Positions 183 to 27,985 of a stretch of DNA of 50,654 nt are shown here, in pieces (position 1 is the first letter of the stretch; each line of letters begins with the position of its first letter). The notes beneath the pieces were generated by a model. That model was not told the DNA's origin and searched no databases. It worked only from the letters and a program-made list of their open reading frames with translations. Source of the stretch: Methanobacteriota archaeon (GTDB lineage Archaea > Undinarchaeota > Undinarchaeia > Undinarchaeales > Undinarchaeaceae); NCBI GenBank assembly GCA_002687935.1, contig NZBN01000004.1, positions 1 to 50,654 on the forward strand, in the 5' to 3' direction. The position numbers were made by a program, and so were the translations under genes.

Positions 183-533
183 TTGAAAGAAAGCATAACA
201 CAATTTATTGGAACTGATAGAGTTTGTAAAGGATGTGTCACAGTATTTGAACCGGCATCGTGGAACCAATTATATTGTAATAAAATGTGTCGTTTGAATA
301 ATTATTGCCCGCCAACCATAAAATGTAAGGTTTGTGGAAATAAACGAGAGAAATATGGACGCGGGATGTGTAGAAGTTGTTGGAAAAGGAGTTACCTCTT
401 AAAGAAAAATCCAATAAAACAGAAAAAATGTAAAAAATGTAGTAAGACATTTGAAACACGTTTTTCATTTAAGATTTTTTGTTCAAATGAGTGTAAAATT
501 AGATACCATTCGGAAAACCAAAAATCTAAATAA
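183..533 (+). CDS. Small protein with several Cys-pair (zinc-ribbon-like) motifs
   Basis: Supplied ORF; CKGC...YCNKMC, CKVC...CRSC and CKKC...CSNEC pairs; TTG start; visibly AT-rich compared with the following operon. Confidence 0.5.
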   Translation: MKESITQFIGTDRVCKGCVTVFEPASWNQLYCNKMCRLNNYCPPTIKCKVCGNKREKYGRGMCRSCWKRSYLLKKNPIKQKKCKKCSKTFETRFSFKIFCSNECKIRYHSENQKSK

Positions 534-548
534 TCCAAGCGCCGAGGA
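527..548. repeat. Direct-repeat copy 1 of taaataatccaagcgccgagga (tRNA-Ser 3' end plus trailer)
   Basis: Exact 22-bp match to 585-606, which covers the tRNA-Ser 3' end. Confidence 0.9.
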
Positions 549-579
549 TCAGATTCACTTCGTGAATAACCCCTCGTCG
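540..579 (+). repeat. Stem-loop element 1 (plus orientation): CGCCGAGGATCAG-ATTCAC-TTC-GTGAAT-AACCCCTCGTCG
   Basis: Inner 6-bp stem 553-558/562-567; outer arms 540-547/572-579 with one mismatch; same TCAGA...TAACCC flanks as the three elements below. Confidence 0.7.
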
Positions 580-584
580 CGGGT

Positions 585-606
585 TAAATAATCCAAGCGC
601 CGAGGA
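585..606. repeat. Direct-repeat copy 2 of taaataatccaagcgccgagga, at the tRNA-Ser 3' end
   Basis: Exact 22-bp match to 527-548. Confidence 0.9.
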
Positions 607-681
607 GGGGATTTGAACCCCCAAATCCCGAAGGAAACTGAGTTAGCAACCCAGCGCAATACCAGATTATGCGACCTCGGC
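598..681 (-). tRNA. tRNA-Ser(GCT)
   Basis: Acceptor GCCGAGG/CCTCGGC, discriminator G, T-arm GGGGGTTCAAATCCCC, anticodon loop with GCT, long variable arm; no encoded CCA. Confidence 0.93.
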
Positions 682-701
682 TTTGTGTTGACTTCTTCTG
701 A

Positions 702-750
702 GCCAAGGGTTATGCAGTATCTAATTGCATTGTCTGCATCTGACCTCGGC
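702..750 (-). repeat. Stem-loop element 2: outer GCCGAGG/CCTTGGC, inner ATGCAG/CTGCAT
   Basis: Arms at 744-750/702-708 and 712-717/734-739; one G-U wobble in the outer stem. Confidence 0.8.
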
Positions 751-770
751 TTTGTGTTGACTTCTTCTGA

Positions 771-819
771 GCCGAGGGTTACATAGTAACCAAGTTCAAG
801 GTCTATGTCTGACCTCGGC
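771..819 (-). repeat. Stem-loop element 3: outer GCCGAGG/CCTCGGC, inner ACATAG/CTATGT
   Basis: Arms at 813-819/771-777 and 781-786/803-808; inner stem covaries with element 2. Confidence 0.8.
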
Positions 820-15157: not shown

Positions 15158-15264
15158 GTGCGATATAAAGTTAAGAGCCTTATAAAGCTTTCTTGATAAC
15201 CCGCAACTACATGGGATTTGTGTTAAATAGATTTCTGTGCCACTTTAAGTGTAGAGGTGAGCTT

Positions 15265-15594
15265 ATGGAAAAGCTGGTGATAAAAATAGGAAAAGTAGTA
15301 GGAACATCTCTTGCAGGGCTTCTTGCACTGTGCAACGCAGCCTATGCAATAATACCACCAAACACAACAGAAGTTCCTGATGAGATACTGCAACCATTTT
15401 GGAATGCTTATGCCCTTATAAAAGGAATAGCAACAGCCGCAGTGGCGGTTGCACTTGCATACAATTTTATGCAATGGTCAGCAGCATCTGGAAATCCTGC
15501 AGAGCGAGAACAGGTGAAGAAGCAGATGCTTGCAGTAATACTTGGCTATGCAGGAATACTGCTTGCAGTTCCAATAATAAATTATTTAGTATAA
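15265..15594 (+). CDS. VirB2/TrbC-like pilin subunit
   Basis: Internal ATG at 15265 after gaggtga; signal peptide ending NAAYA, then two TM segments (IKGIATAAVAVALAYNF, MLAVILGYAGILLAVPII); upstream of VirB6/VirB3/VirB4-like genes. Confidence 0.7.
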   Translation: MEKLVIKIGKVVGTSLAGLLALCNAAYAIIPPNTTEVPDEILQPFWNAYALIKGIATAAVAVALAYNFMQWSAASGNPAEREQVKKQMLAVILGYAGILLAVPIINYLV

Positions 15595-16554
15595 ATGAAA
15601 AAACTGAGAATTTTTCTTGTAGCGGCAGCTCTGGTATTTGTATTAGGGACTGGTTCAGCGACAGCTGTAGGAGATATAGGAGGAAGTTCAATAGGCCTGA
15701 TAGACTTAAGTCCCATAACTACATCAATAAATCAGCTGAACACAGATATACAGACAAAACTTCCCATAATTATAGCAAATGAAAGCGAAGCAAGAATAGA
15801 CAAGGGTATTGACACATTCAGACAAAAAGTTCTCTTAGAGCCAGGGGAGAAGAGCTATCAGAATTTTATGGAGGTTTACTCCAAGAAACCAGAGCTTGAT
15901 GAGAAAAAAAGTGCGAAGGTTACAGGATTCTTAGTTGCCGCATTTGTCCTTGTGCTTTTCAGCTACAATCTACTTCCTCTTGTTGTTGGAGGGATGGGAA
16001 GTCCCGTCGCAAGAGAAACAATGAAGGGGCAATTGAAAAATCTTGTTTTCATGCTTGCAGGCCTCTATGCTTCATACTACATATACACCTCAGTTTACGA
16101 AATGTCACTTGCGGGCGCAAAATATTTGATATGGAAAGAGAAAGTACAGTTCCTGAATCCTGTAAATGCCAGTGCAGACTTTTTTACAACACTCTATACA
16201 GTAATTGTTGTAAGCATGGCAGAGATTTTCGTAAAAACGAGACTCTTCTTAACAGAATTTGGAGTCTTGATTCTACCCTTTGCTTGGGTTATGTACAATT
16301 CAAGTTGGGAAGAATTTGAAGCACTGGGAGCCAAGGCAATTGCGACACTTACTCTCTTTCTGGCGATGCCAATTGTAGACGCACTTCTTCTTATGACACT
16401 TACAGGAACGACTGACTTTGTTTTTGTCTCTCTTCTAGCCTTTGTTATAATAAATTACTATGTGATAACTGGAACTCTCAAATCCCTTGTAAGCCCAGTG
16501 AAGGATGCAATAGGATCTCTTAGAAGATTTACTGTGGTAGGGGTGATTCGATGA
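15595..16554 (+). CDS. Polytopic membrane protein, VirB6/TrbL-like by position and topology
   Basis: N-terminal signal-like segment, multiple TM helices, between the pilin-like and PrgI-like genes; starts immediately after the upstream stop codon. Confidence 0.6.
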   Translation: MKKLRIFLVAAALVFVLGTGSATAVGDIGGSSIGLIDLSPITTSINQLNTDIQTKLPIIIANESEARIDKGIDTFRQKVLLEPGEKSYQNFMEVYSKKPELDEKKSAKVTGFLVAAFVLVLFSYNLLPLVVGGMGSPVARETMKGQLKNLVFMLAGLYASYYIYTSVYEMSLAGAKYLIWKEKVQFLNPVNASADFFTTLYTVIVVSMAEIFVKTRLFLTEFGVLILPFAWVMYNSSWEEFEALGAKAIATLTLFLAMPIVDALLLMTLTGTTDFVFVSLLAFVIINYYVITGTLKSLVSPVKDAIGSLRRFTVVGVIR

Positions 16555-17423
16555 CTGAAATAAAATCCGGATACGATGTTCCACAGAGTATGCGTTATGA
16601 AGAGAAAGTATTAGGAGCACTAACTTTCAGACAGGTAATCTATCTCCTCCTCGGAGGAATTGTAGCAATCTTCTTCTGGAAACTGCCACTGATAGAGACT
16701 GTAAGAATATCTCTCTCTGCTATTTCACTTATTTTAGGACTTATACTGGGCTTCGCCAAAGTAAAATCAAGGAATGCTGATGAACACCTCTATAGTATCG
16801 CTAGGTATCACCGCAGGCCAAAGCGCTTCGGCTACCTTGATGCTGAAATGGCGAAGCTCATTGGAGTTAGTGGAATAAAAAACGGGGCAGTTCTTATGGA
16901 TAACGGGACAGTTCTCGCGATAGTACAGGCAAGTCCGATAAACTTCACTATGCGTTCTGAAGAAGATAAGGAGGCAATAATAGGACGCTACAGAAGGTTT
17001 CTTGACTCTCTGGATTTCCCCATACAGATACTTGTGAGGACTGTGAAGTTAGATATCGAACCATATTTGAAATCAGTAAAAGAGCGGGCCAATAAGTCAA
17101 AAGGAAAGAAGGCAGGAAAACTCTTCGAACATTTCTGTAAGTATTTTGAGAAGACTATTAAAGAGAGGAATGTGAAAAACCGTCTCTTTTATGTTATAGT
17201 TCCGGCGGGAAAGACGCGAAAGGATCAAAGTGAAATTGATTCAAGAGTTTCTCTTTGTATAGACGGACTATCCGGCTGTGGGATAAAAGCAAGAAGACTA
17301 AACTCAGGAGAACTAGCACCACTTCTGGCCAGTTTTCTTGAAGGCCATATTGAAGAAGATTGGGGCTACATCTCTCCGATTACAGTACTTGGAAATTTCG
17401 AAGGAAGGAAGGAAAATGTTTAA
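16551..17423 (+). CDS. PrgI/VirB3-like protein with extended C-terminal region
   Basis: YDVPQSMRYEEKVLGALTFRQVIYLLLGGIVAIFFW...GLILGFAKVKSRNADEHLYSIARYHRRPKRF; ATGA overlap with the preceding gene. Confidence 0.75.
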   Translation: MTEIKSGYDVPQSMRYEEKVLGALTFRQVIYLLLGGIVAIFFWKLPLIETVRISLSAISLILGLILGFAKVKSRNADEHLYSIARYHRRPKRFGYLDAEMAKLIGVSGIKNGAVLMDNGTVLAIVQASPINFTMRSEEDKEAIIGRYRRFLDSLDFPIQILVRTVKLDIEPYLKSVKERANKSKGKKAGKLFEHFCKYFEKTIKERNVKNRLFYVIVPAGKTRKDQSEIDSRVSLCIDGLSGCGIKARRLNSGELAPLLASFLEGHIEEDWGYISPITVLGNFEGRKENV

Positions 17424-19161
17424 TCTGAAAAGAAAGCAGAGTGAGGAAAAGGGAGTACAGGAAATTCTGAAACCCAGCTCAGTTTCTATTGGACAAGATA
17501 AAATAAACATAAATGACAGGTACAATCGAATAGTGATGGCAGCTGGCTGGCCCGGAAGAGTTCAGGAAGGTTTTCTTGACAGAATTATTACAGCAAAGGG
17601 AGAGTTTGACATAAGCCTGCATATCCATCCAATGACAAATGATGACAGTAGAGTTTATCTGGACAATGCCATAAAAAAGATGGATGCAGATAATTTCAGC
17701 CTTAAGAAAACAGGTAGTAGTAGTGCCACTCTGGCAAACAAAATAGCTGACGCTAATTCAACCCTGAAAAGAGTTGAATTCGGAGAAGAGAGACTTTTTG
17801 ACACATCACTCTATGTAAATGTAAAGGCTTATGATGACAGCGAACTGGAAAGGCAAACAAAAAAAGTCGAGTCCATAATGAGCTCAGTAAAAATTATTCC
17901 GAGGAGACCAGGATATAGAATGAGAGAAGGTATTGAAAGCGTTCTCCCCTTTGCTAGAAACAGACTTAGTGTAAAGAGAGCCCTGACGACTTCTGCTCTG
18001 AGTGCACTCTTTCCATTCACCACAAGTTATCTTGAACTCGAAGACGGAGGTGTTTTCCTTGGAGTCAATGAAAAGAACAACATACCTATAATACAGGACA
18101 TCTTCAGATTCAGGAACCCGAATGGAATAGTTGTCGGATCTTCTGGAAGCGGAAAATCCTTCGCGGCGAAACTGCTCGCAACAAGAGTTATGTGGAACGG
18201 TGCAAAGGTAAGAATAATAGATCCTGAAGGAGAGTACGCAGCCCTCGCCTCGGCACTAGGAGGGAAAGTTGTGAAAATTTCAAGGGATTCAAAGACCTGT
18301 ATTAATCTTCTTGACTTTATGGGACAGGATTATAGTGAAAAGCGGGAATCTCTTATGAGCTCCTTCGCCGTTCTTTTTGGAGATATGTCAAGCTATCAGA
18401 AATCCAGACTTGAGAGAGCAATATTGTCCGCCTACAAAATGAAGGGGATTGAAAAAGAAGTCAAAGAAAGTTGGCAAAATTCTCCGCCGATTTTATCTGA
18501 CCTCTATGAGGCACTTTCAGAAGAAATGGGAAAAGCAGAAACACAGAAACAGAAAGATGAGATTTTATCCATTATGTGCAAGATGGATATGTTCATTGAA
18601 GAGGACGGACTTTTTTCTTATCTTAACTCAAGAACTCAGATGGAATTTGAAAATCAATTAGTCGTATTTGATATATCTGAAATGTCTGAGCACGTCCAGC
18701 CCTTAATATTGCATATGATACTGGAATATCTGAACTATGAAATGAGAAGAGACAGGGAAAGAAGCTTCGTCGTAGTTGATGAGGTCTGGAAACTCCTTAG
18801 AGAACCAGCAGTAGTTGACCACATTTTCAAAATGGTTAAGACATCGAGGAAGTGGAATATGTCCCTCATCCTCATTACACAACAGGTAAGAGACCTTACG
18901 AATAGTGAGGCAGGAGAAGCCGTCCTGGCGAACACTAGTTTCAAATATATTTTTGGTCACGAGGCAAGTGATATGAAATACAGCCAACCCTTCTTTGGAC
19001 TGAATACAAGAGAAAAACAAATACTTCTGACAGCGAAACCAGGGGAGGGAGTCTTGATGTTGGGAGACAGTCATTACAATATAAAGATTGAAGCATCTCC
19101 AGAGGAAACTGAAATTATTACAACTGACGCAGATGTTCTCAGAAAAGTGGAAATTGATTAA
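17416..19161 (+). CDS. VirB4/TraC-like conjugation/pilus ATPase
   Basis: Walker A GSSGSGKSFAAK, FVVVDEVWKLL Walker B, RKWNMSLILITQQV; ATG at 17416 after aaggaagg. Confidence 0.88.
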   Translation: MFNLKRKQSEEKGVQEILKPSSVSIGQDKININDRYNRIVMAAGWPGRVQEGFLDRIITAKGEFDISLHIHPMTNDDSRVYLDNAIKKMDADNFSLKKTGSSSATLANKIADANSTLKRVEFGEERLFDTSLYVNVKAYDDSELERQTKKVESIMSSVKIIPRRPGYRMREGIESVLPFARNRLSVKRALTTSALSALFPFTTSYLELEDGGVFLGVNEKNNIPIIQDIFRFRNPNGIVVGSSGSGKSFAAKLLATRVMWNGAKVRIIDPEGEYAALASALGGKVVKISRDSKTCINLLDFMGQDYSEKRESLMSSFAVLFGDMSSYQKSRLERAILSAYKMKGIEKEVKESWQNSPPILSDLYEALSEEMGKAETQKQKDEILSIMCKMDMFIEEDGLFSYLNSRTQMEFENQLVVFDISEMSEHVQPLILHMILEYLNYEMRRDRERSFVVVDEVWKLLREPAVVDHIFKMVKTSRKWNMSLILITQQVRDLTNSEAGEAVLANTSFKYIFGHEASDMKYSQPFFGLNTREKQILLTAKPGEGVLMLGDSHYNIKIEASPEETEIITTDADVLRKVEID

Positions 19162-20669: not shown

Positions 20670-22283
20670 TTATTCTTCCTCTTCAGAAGCTCCACTTTCA
20701 ATCCATTTATTTAGAAATTCTGCTGCAAGAGCTTTTATCCTCATAACTTCTTTGTTGTAGGATTTTCCGTAAGAATACTTTTCTGAATATTCCCCAAAGT
20801 TGTGCTTTGCAGTATCAAAATACTCTGCAATATCGTCAGAACCCATATTTTCAAGGCTATCAATATGAAGTAGCCCCATTGCAGTTCGACGCCAACGCTG
20901 ATACTTTTCTGTGATTTCAGTAGCGTTCATCTCCTTCCATTCCCCTTCTGAAAGGGCGTCCGAAAAATCTTTCCACTCAGAGGGTATGTCCCCCTTCTTT
21001 TTGTAGTCCCTAGTCTTCCCCTCAAAAGGATCGAAAACAGGTGGAATATAACCAAGGGGTAGTAAGCCTGAAAGTATAACAGGTGGCTCAACAAGAAGCT
21101 TCAGAAGAAGCTCTTCAGTAATCCACACATAACCCCCTTCTCCAAAGCCCTTACCCCAACTATTCCTGATTTTGAAAGCCTTGACTCCACCACCTTTGTG
21201 TGGATAGTGTGAGTGGTAACCAACAATCGTCATTGCATGACATTCGTCTTTACCACCTGAAGTTTTTGTATAAAGAGATTTTGTATGATGGTTGAAATTT
21301 CCATAAGTATCCATAGCTATGTATATTGGGTCTCCTTGTTTCAGCCAAGATATCCACTCTGAAGTGTCAGTTCTGGAAAGTTTTAATGACTTCTGTGCAC
21401 CCCTTCGTCTTGCATCGTCTTCTATAATAGTAGCATTTTCAGGTTCCTCTGTAGGATTCTTTTTGAACTTATTTGGCTCATCTGATTCTTGATCCTTGTA
21501 GCTCCACAAAGCCTCGGTGCAAATTCCTTTATATGAAGCACGTGATTCATCTGTAATGCATGAAAAAATATTTTGAGTTAAGCTACCCACATCAGAATTT
21601 TTAGCTTCAACCCCTCTCCCGAAATAGTAAAGGAAGAGAGGAGAAAGTACCTCACTCTTTCCGTCAATATTGTGGTAGTATTCCACCATACAAGAGGCAG
21701 CAAATGCAGCGCAGGAACCTAGCCCCCCTTGTGACCTTACACCCAGAAAATTTTCAGAAAGGTCAATTAAAATTTCTTCAGTATTAATTTCTTCTTTTTC
21801 GGAATCTGATAGCTCATCAGCCTCCTCTATTTCATCGAGGTCTTCGTCGACGTGGAGCTGAGGCTCTTCACGCTTTTCATCCGGCATATCTGGATCACTA
21901 TCTACAGAGTCTGCCAAATCTACCAGACCTTCAGGGTCTATTCCCTCTCGTCGCTCGCCAGCGTCTTCTTCATCCGCAGGCGCAGGAGGAGTAGGTCTTC
22001 TTCTGCCAGGTCCTCCGTCAAAGCCTAATCGACGAAATAAGAAAATAAGTGCCACTACAGCTACCAGGAGGATAATTATTCCAGAGCCGCCCCCTCCGCC
22101 GCCAGTTGCTCCGCCACTGCTTCCGCCACTAACAGCAGAACCTCCACCTCCGCCGAAGGAAATACCACCAAAACTCTCCATTATGCCCAGACCAAGGAGT
22201 CTGTCAGCAAAGAAGAGTGCGCCTATAATTACAATAAGGACTATGAGGATTTTACCAAATTTCCCATACTTTTTCTTAAACAT
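20670..22283 (-). CDS. Membrane-anchored papain-like (C1 family) cysteine protease
   Basis: SQGGLGSCAAFAASCMVEYY (Q, C), DECHAMTIVGY (H), KIRNSWGKGFGEGGYVWI (N); two N-terminal TM segments separated by a Gly-rich loop. Confidence 0.85.
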   Translation of the reverse strand: MFKKKYGKFGKILIVLIVIIGALFFADRLLGLGIMESFGGISFGGGGGSAVSGGSSGGATGGGGGGSGIIILLVAVVALIFLFRRLGFDGGPGRRRPTPPAPADEEDAGERREGIDPEGLVDLADSVDSDPDMPDEKREEPQLHVDEDLDEIEEADELSDSEKEEINTEEILIDLSENFLGVRSQGGLGSCAAFAASCMVEYYHNIDGKSEVLSPLFLYYFGRGVEAKNSDVGSLTQNIFSCITDESRASYKGICTEALWSYKDQESDEPNKFKKNPTEEPENATIIEDDARRRGAQKSLKLSRTDTSEWISWLKQGDPIYIAMDTYGNFNHHTKSLYTKTSGGKDECHAMTIVGYHSHYPHKGGGVKAFKIRNSWGKGFGEGGYVWITEELLLKLLVEPPVILSGLLPLGYIPPVFDPFEGKTRDYKKKGDIPSEWKDFSDALSEGEWKEMNATEITEKYQRWRRTAMGLLHIDSLENMGSDDIAEYFDTAKHNFGEYSEKYSYGKSYNKEVMRIKALAAEFLNKWIESGASEEEE

Positions 22284-22344: not shown

Positions 22345-22438
22345 TCCCCCCGGCTGGATTTGAACCTGCAACCTTCCGGTATCAGCACATACTGATGACG
22401 TTCTACAGCCGGACGCTCTGCCATTGAGCTACAGGGGG
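22345..22438 (-). tRNA. tRNA-Tyr(GTA) with intron
   Basis: Starts CCCCCTGTAGCTC; anticodon loop CTGTAGA interrupted by about 22 nt before CCGGA; C1-G72 pair. Confidence 0.9.
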
Positions 22439-22674
22439 ATAACATTTTGATGAATGTTTGCTTATTTAAATCTAGTGGGGTGCTTGCTTGTCTCGATGCT
22501 ATTATAGTTTAGTTCTGGCAAAGCTTATTTGGGAAGTATTATACTTATCTTTTTAAGCCTTGAATTATGGAGAAAATATACTTTTTTCATAATCTCCCTT
22601 GCATTATTTAACTGATCTTTAGTAAGACATTATTATATCAGAACGGAGTGAAATGGTTGAAGAGGGGAGTGTAG

Positions 22675-22748
22675 TGGGCCCGACCGGATTTGAACCGGCG
22701 ACCTTTACCATGTGAAGGTAACGTCATACCGAGCTAGACCACAGGCCC
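22675..22748 (-). tRNA. tRNA-Val(CAC)
   Basis: GGGCCTGTGGTCTAGC...TTACC-TTCACAT-GGTAA...GCCGGTTCAAATCCGGTCGGGCCC. Confidence 0.94.
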
Positions 22749-22760
22749 ACAAGTATTCTT

Positions 22761-22801
22761 TGGGTAGGGGTTACGCGCTTGCGCGTCTGACCACAGGCCC
22801 A
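22761..22801 (-). repeat. Stem-loop element 4 with a copy of the tRNA-Val 5' end: TGGGCCTGTGGTCAG-ACGCG-CAAG-CGCGT-AACCCCTACCCA
   Basis: TGGGCCTGTGGTC is identical to the tRNA-Val start plus the preceding T; inner 5-bp stem; TCAGA...TAACCC flanks as in elements 1-3. Confidence 0.75.
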
Positions 22802-27724: not shown

Positions 27725-27741
27725 CCCCGACTGGGACCCAG
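27725..27741. repeat. Partial copy of the tRNA-Glu 3' region lacking the T-loop (ccccgactggga-cccag)
   Basis: Matches tRNA-Glu from 27807 exactly apart from a 6-nt ttcgaa deletion. Confidence 0.7.
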
Positions 27742-27804
27742 AAGCACTTTTTTAGAAAAAAAGTTGCACAAAAAACCCCTCGCTTCGCTCGGGAGTAAAC
27801 CAAG

Positions 27805-27879
27805 CGCCCCGACTGGGATTCGAACCCAGGTCACCAGGATGAAAACCTAGTATGATTGGCCGGACTACACCATCGGGGC
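27805..27879 (-). tRNA. tRNA-Glu(TTC)
   Basis: GCCCCGATGGTGTAGTCCGGCCAATCAT; anticodon stem-loop CTAGG-TTTTCAT-CCTGG; discriminator G. Confidence 0.94.
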
Positions 27880-27882
27880 ATG

Positions 27883-27985
27883 TGGGCCAGCCGAGATTTG
27901 AACTCGGGACCTCGCGCTTTCTTAAGCGAGTGTACGAAACGACGCCTTATAAGACGCGCGCTCCACCAGGCTAAGCTACTGGCCC
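27883..27985 (-). tRNA. tRNA-Ile(TAT) with intron of about 29 nt
   Basis: GGGCCAGTAGCTTAGCCTGGTGGAGCG-CGCGT-CTTATA[intron]A-GCGCG-AGGTC-CCGAGTTCAAATCTCGG-CTGGCCC-A; short variable loop. Confidence 0.8.

Follow-up and report, generated by a model that had tools for sequence, protein, structure and literature searches.

How does a tRNA gene come to be preceded by a second copy of its own 5′ end, with a short hairpin between the two? This arrangement occurs at tRNA-Val(cac) in the window, by which we mean the whole stretch of 50,654 nucleotides that was analyzed. It belongs to a MAG (G000; 666,542 bp, 86.6% complete) of the Undinarchaeota, a little-known group of small archaea, and the EF-1alpha encoded in it is 98% identical to that of the Candidatus Undinarchaeales MAG SRR5007147.bin71 and to that of UBA55. 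Read directly, the minus strand from position 22801 gives TGGGCCTGTGGTC, then AGACGCGCAAGCGCGTAACCCCTACCCAAAGAATACTTG, then TGGGCCTGTGGTC again, running into the tRNA. We consider it probable (at roughly 0.8) that this feature is one copy of a group of very small non-coding hairpin mobile elements, moved in trans and inserted at tRNA gene ends in Undinarchaeota.

The tRNA-Val locus and similar sites in the window

The insert at tRNA-Val starts with AGA-CGCG-CAAG-CGCG-TAAC, continues with an arm complementary to the tRNA copy, now decayed, and has a short tail (Table 1). Because this arm has decayed, the window copy has a weak folding z-score (-1.29). The preliminary description had reported here a 13-nt repeat of the beginning of the tRNA, a TCAGA-hairpin-TAAC core and then the intact tRNA, and both the sequence and ARAGORN confirmed this; the units at tRNA-Ser that it had matched to the site through their TCAGA/TAACC core were also as described, both reading GCCGAGGTC-AGA-hairpin-TAACC. 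It had missed a third TCAGA/TAACC copy, which lies 3′ of this tRNA-Ser(gct) on the opposite strand (549-570, plus strand), as well as a related insert 3′ of tRNA-Glu(ttc).

A search of the window for the gapped pattern GGTCAGA...TAACCC gave a single match, against none expected from shuffles. Across the whole of its own genome there are 25 matches to TCAGA-N-TAACC, of which six have a perfect Watson-Crick stem of 4–5 bp. All six of these sit at tRNA ends (Ser gct, Ser tga and Val cac); the remaining 19 have stems of 0–2 bp only. This was the genome-wide test for which the preliminary description had called.

Some other features of the window were seen in passing. Two intron-containing tRNAs on the minus strand, tRNA-Tyr (22345-22438) and tRNA-Ile(tat) (27883-27985), were found by Rfam and missed by a plain ARAGORN run. 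Just downstream of the tRNA-Val/tRNA-Tyr pair lies a gene for a papain-family cysteine protease with an N-terminal hydrophobic stretch (20670-22283, minus strand). An operon at 15193-19161 (plus strand) encodes a PrgI-family protein and a VirB4/TraG-type ATPase, and resembles part of a conjugation or secretion apparatus within a very small archaeal genome.

Table 1. Positions in the window of the tRNA-end elements, their target duplications and the tRNAs that they adjoin.
Feature	Sequence or content	Position	Strand	Remark
tRNA-Val(cac), outer target duplication	TGGGCCTGTGGTC, upstream copy of 5′ end, 13 nt	22789..22801	-	empty orthologous site in G001
tRNA-Val(cac), 39-nt insert	AGA-hairpin-TAAC, cognate complementary arm, short tail	22750..22788	-	
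Inner hairpin of the insert	ACGCG-CAAG-CGCGT	22773..22786	-	inside UCAG/AAC internal loop
Decayed arm of the insert	CCCTACCCA, complementary to tRNA-Val copy	22761..22769	-	counterpart in sister genome G002: CCACAGCCCA
tRNA-Val(cac), intact		22674..22748	-	ARAGORN; second copy of the duplicated 13 nt at 22749-22737
tRNA-Ser(gct) 5′ element, unit 1	GCCGAGGTC-AGACATAG...CTATGTAAC-CCTCGGC-spacer	751..819	-	
tRNA-Ser(gct) 5′ element, unit 2		682..750	-	
tRNA-Ser(gct)		597..681	-	ARAGORN
tRNA-Ser(gct) 3′ element	TCAGATTCACTTCGTGAATAACC...	549..584	+	mirror orientation
tRNA-Ser(gct) 22-bp 3′ duplication, first copy	TCCTCGGCGCTTGGATTATTTA	585..606	-	inside and just after the tRNA
tRNA-Ser(gct) 22-bp 3′ duplication, second copy		527..548	-	
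tRNA-Glu(ttc) 3′ insert	family C hairpin, plus strand CCCAGAAGCAC-TTTTTTAGAAAAAAA-GTTGC	27737..27806	-	
tRNA-Glu(ttc) 3′-end copy	TCCCAGTCGGGG	27725..27736	-	original within the tRNA at 27818-27807

Insertions with target duplications in Undinarchaeota genomes

Six Undinarchaeota genomes (G000–G005) were compared, among them two of the same genus as the window's genome (G001 and G002) and one that is 98% complete (G003). Direct copies of the 5′ end upstream, or of the 3′ end downstream, were sought at the 172 tRNAs of G000, G001, G002, G003 and G005, and the null was obtained by swapping flanks among the tRNAs within one genome. Copies were present at 12 5′ ends and 28 3′ ends (40 in the five genomes), some of them reflecting likeness to a neighboring tRNA (e.g. 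Asp/Lys), against means of 2.05 and 4.6 (about 7 in total) and maxima of 4 and 9 with swapped flanks. G004 adds two 5′ cases, one of them a 22-nt copy at Leu(gag). The inserts enclosed by the copies measure 19–168 bp and fall into several families, each common to different tRNAs.

Since tRNA ends are alike, some short repeats would arise by chance resemblance (2–5 per 172 tRNAs per side). However, the observed numbers exceed the permuted means about sixfold and the maxima about threefold, the insert families are conserved, and 35 tRNAs taken from the genomes of three other archaea yielded no end copy. We give chance virtually no credence: the flank permutation and the three control genomes reject it, as do the pairs of filled and empty loci.

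These pairs were found by comparing orthologous tRNA loci between sister genomes. At 5′ ends, Val(cac) has an element in G000 and in G002 where the site in G001 (L183) is empty; G001 has one at Ser(cga) where the site in G000 is empty, and G002 has one at Ser(tga) where the site in G001 is empty. At 3′ ends, G001 has elements at Thr(tgt), Val(tac) and Arg(gcg) where the sites in G002 are empty, and at Phe and Lys(ctt) where those in G000 are empty. In every pair, the filled allele differs from the empty one by the insert and a single additional copy of the tRNA end, bar ordinary substitutions between genomes. The occurrence of the same loci in filled and empty form therefore shows that these are insertions with target duplications, and the mobility of the elements is well supported by these comparisons; as the genomes are incomplete MAGs, we infer transposition from comparison only. 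G001 and G002 seem to be the more closely related pair, yet the Val(cac) element is absent from G001, a distribution that requires loss, independent insertion or transfer; precise loss or independent insertion is possible. Runs of N lie in or at element copies at the G002 loci L206 and L333, so that some copies in this genome are unreadable.

Recurrent formation or insertion at tRNA ends, with the end of whichever tRNA is adjoined, had been proposed in the preliminary description; it holds at many tRNAs in the six genomes, and is borne out by the filled and empty orthologous loci. The 5′ end is indeed one site of insertion, but the proposed restriction to it was dropped, as 3′ ends are used more often and in mirror orientation. 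The copy of the tRNA 5′ end, which the element had been thought to carry, is present and is best interpreted as a target-site duplication that arose when the element inserted. Likewise, the TCAGA/TAAC family is real, but it is only one of several sequence families into which the hairpins fall.

Clean target duplications are 9–23 nt long overall (16–23 nt at 3′ ends and 9–22 nt at 5′ ends). For 10 of the 12 clean cases at 3′ ends, the inner boundary fell within -15 to -17, whereas the outer boundary ranged from 0 to +12. Elements at the two tRNA ends are mirror images around the tRNA. Terminal inverted repeats were not detected among 31 inserts (mean score 4.8, compared to 5.2 for shuffled inserts).

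Insert families and their structure

Family A (TCAGA-hairpin-TAAC) was found at Ser, Val and His; family B (about 90 nt, with three hairpins) at Thr, Val, Arg, Ile, Phe, Pro, Glu and Leu in G001; and family C (AGCAC-TTTTTTAGAAAAAAA-GTGC) at Lys, Val and Glu. In G005, family D (92–97 nt) lies upstream of Ala, Arg, Thr and Tyr and, as the reverse complement, downstream of Lys, whilst family E lies 3′ of Gln, Leu and Ser. Whole-genome searches placed all 16 located copies of families B and D next to tRNAs (B, 9/9 in G001 and 2/2 in G002; D, 5/5 in G005), the zone within 150 bp of a tRNA amounting to about 2% of the genome. Each family D copy has the end of its own tRNA duplicated, and most family B copies are flanked by that of theirs. 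The second family B copy of G002 abuts the reverse complement of a tRNA-Ser broken by an N gap. At G001 Leu(gag) and Leu(tag) (L264 and L265), family B stands reversed next to the tRNA 3′ ends with no clear flanking tRNA copy.

Stems covary in the second hairpin of family B, which has six different stems around a loop of ACAAG (ATAAG once); all four pairs vary on both sides, and 95.8% of cells are paired. The family B copies at Pro(tgg) and Glu(ctc) stop just after the first hairpin, with the head intact and the tail hairpins missing, and are therefore truncated at the tail. Rfam covariance models gave only tRNA and sub-threshold chance matches at 11 loci, and only 5S rRNA and tRNA matches on the window.

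Family A has a further property, in that the heptamer following TAAC pairs with the heptamer of the tRNA copy that precedes TCAGA. Examples are GCCGAGG/CCTCGGC (Ser), GCCGCGG/CCGCGGC (Ser tga, G002), GCCCGGA/TCCGGTC (His) and CCTGTGG/CCACAGC (Val, G002). Over six distinct elements, 37 of 42 positions pair, which is the single best of 720 permutations, and four elements have fold z-scores of -3.8 to -5.0. A complementary-arm test over all inserts was mostly not significant, so the cognate arm is a property of family A.

This arm repeats the adjoining tRNA end in inverted form, which is what fold-back copying would yield, and there are tandem arrays at Ser and Pro. Both observations would suit an origin of stub and hairpin together through local events alone, such as slippage, tandem duplication or template switching, with no mobile element. 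Families B and D, however, place the same sequence at many unlinked tRNAs, and single insertions bring 41–95 bp that are missing from the empty allele. Sequence common to different tRNAs refutes a purely local origin for families B, C, D and E, and as a general account we regard it as very improbable.

The covarying stems and cognate arms could also mean that the hairpins are functional leader or trailer structures of pre-tRNAs (terminators, processing signals or decoys), kept under selection together with the tRNA copies. As 3′ inserts, families B and C bring T-runs to a position immediately downstream of the tRNA, where they could serve termination in archaea. Against this, presence at the same tRNA is patchy between close sisters, orientation is mirrored at the two ends, and most of the 172 tRNAs have no end copy at all. 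We find selection for such a function a distinctly unlikely explanation of the structures; a later role for copies that have become fixed is possible.

Mechanism, candidate enzymes and related elements

Profiles for tyrosine integrase (PF00589), Cas1 (PF01867) and reverse transcriptase (RVT_1, PF00078) found no match in five of the six genomes (G000, G001, G002, G003 and G005), which include the 98% complete one. RVT_1 matched in G004 only, which also has two PF00589 genes on short contigs, one of them beside an IS91-like transposase reading frame; Cas1 had no match in any of the six incomplete MAGs. A virus, a plasmid or a host archaeon may therefore supply the enzyme, or it may be of another family. 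Searches of viral contigs gave no matches to families B, C and D, and the Ser-type pattern matched in 14 viral contigs, as a pattern match alone.

The 3′ inner boundary lies in the T-arm, which is a place that integrases use. Larger tyrosine-integrase elements at tRNA genes are the usual source of tRNA fragments, and the stubs and hairpins might be remnants of such elements with their interiors lost. In archaea, integrated elements are commonly flanked by tRNA fragments (PMC9897764). Integrated islands and proviruses of the SSV, pNOB8 and SNJ2 types share with our elements the tRNA target and the tRNA fragment as flanking repeat (PMC9897764), but they are of kilobase size, with an integrase and a fixed att core. 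Such a core cannot match each of at least five different tRNAs, whereas every family D copy and most copies of family B carry the end of their own tRNA. Independent interior deletions, moreover, would need identical end bases to leave the 92–97 bp core in four copies. With no common att core in all copies and the integrase search negative in five of six genomes, we do not place the elements in this group, and consider an origin as integrase remnants unlikely.

Our preferred reading, a non-coding element moved in trans, would work as follows. An enzyme supplied in trans would make two staggered cuts: a fairly fixed inner cut within the tRNA gene, about 15–17 nt from the 3′ end (T-arm) or about 8–16 nt from the 5′ end, and an outer cut, looser in position, just outside the tRNA. 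The hairpin end would be joined at the inner cut, and gap filling would then duplicate the tRNA end, so that an intact tRNA is kept beside a stub of itself; duplication of the adjoining end at insertion thus leaves a complete tRNA gene in place. The inner cut is precise and the outer one loose, there are no inverted termini, a conserved hairpin stands at one end and some copies are truncated at the tail; these traits fit a target-primed mechanism, with a structured RNA or single strand as the template, no less well than they fit a cut-and-paste DNA transposase. A reverse transcriptase could be supplied by a plasmid, a virus or the host archaeon. In family A, the complement of the duplicated tRNA end gives a longer hairpin; this complement would be a product of fold-back copying during insertion, or else be kept by selection for masking the extra tRNA stub. 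Several findings count against our reading: the profile searches in five of the six genomes and the scans of viral contigs for families B, C and D found nothing, the Val element is present in G000 and G002 but not in G001, the window's own Val copy folds weakly, some of the end copies reflect likeness to a neighboring tRNA, the varying length of the duplication is unusual for a single DNA transposase, and simple insertion leaves the cognate arm of family A unaccounted for.

No description of such tRNA-end hairpin elements was found in open-access papers, but several known systems share some of their traits. At E. coli tyrT, copies of the tRNA 3′ end follow the gene as they do here, but at a single locus and in tandem 178-bp units that are not known to have spread among tRNAs; here many tRNAs are involved. 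SINE/LINE-type retroposons that target tRNAs (e.g. Dictyostelium TRE) have variable target duplications, with a structured end that is recognized and another that is truncated. The elements here have the variable duplication (9–23 nt) and the one-end truncation (Pro(tgg) and Glu(ctc)), but differ in that RVT_1 was not found in five of the six genomes. IS200/IS605-type transposition is not known to make a target duplication; with duplications present and empty sites known, we rejected derivation from that group. Palindrome-ended elements derived from it (PATEs and REPs) also have palindromes near their ends and are non-autonomous (PATEs: PMC3119063).

The mobile palindromic elements of mitochondria (yeast GC clusters and the double-hairpin elements of Allomyces) are likewise tiny, sporadic, non-coding hairpins with putative target duplications, and no moving enzyme has been identified for them either (PMC4478555). 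Their duplications are of 2–3 nt and their sites generally intergenic, as against 9–23 nt and tRNA ends here, so they are nearest in size and look, not in target. Casposons are Cas1-mobilized transposons, and that of Aciduliprofundum boonei lies at tRNA-Pro, where the insertion overlaps the tRNA 3′ end and duplicates a segment of it; the motif TCAAATC, recognized upstream of the duplication, resembles the tRNA T-arm (PMC6614799). In contrast to casposons, which have terminal inverted repeats, Cas1 and a duplication of 14–15 bp, our elements are non-coding, 19–168 bp long and without inverted termini, they use 5′ ends too, with duplications of 9–23 nt, and Cas1 was not found in the six genomes. 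We therefore did not class them as casposons.

Outside the genus, GGTCAGA..TAACC matched in 45 of 60 archaeal genomes, mostly at control level, and by itself was too weak a probe. Large elements are well known to land at tRNA genes, normally with a fixed matching core. Here, tiny elements without genes have spread over many tRNAs and each time duplicated the tRNA's own end, which suggests that tRNA genes are recognized as a class and not by any one sequence. With filled and empty alleles at hand in close relatives, the transposition step can be put to a direct test. Spare tRNA stubs can also mislead the annotation of tRNAs and islands.

We tentatively suggest, as a possibility that we hold well short of an even chance, that archaea harbor a general class of structured non-coding mobile elements that would recognize tRNA ends as such, whatever the sequence of the tRNA, cut in the coding region of the D- or T-arm, join a conserved hairpin and duplicate the tRNA end, perhaps by target-primed RNA copying. 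This class would include the elements of Undinarchaeota and, apparently with an independent origin, comparable structures in Halobacteria, for which integrase remnants are a live alternative. At haloarchaeal tRNA-Ala(cgc), beside the EF-1alpha/S10 genes, a 13–15 nt copy of the 3′ end with an adjoining hairpin lies downstream in seven loci (L084, L093, L094, L118, L135, L139 and L140) and is absent in several others. In one Halegenticoccus genome (G060, tRNA loci L334-L363), 3′-end copies were found at 11 of 31 tRNAs tested, and all four copies of one insert family were at tRNAs.
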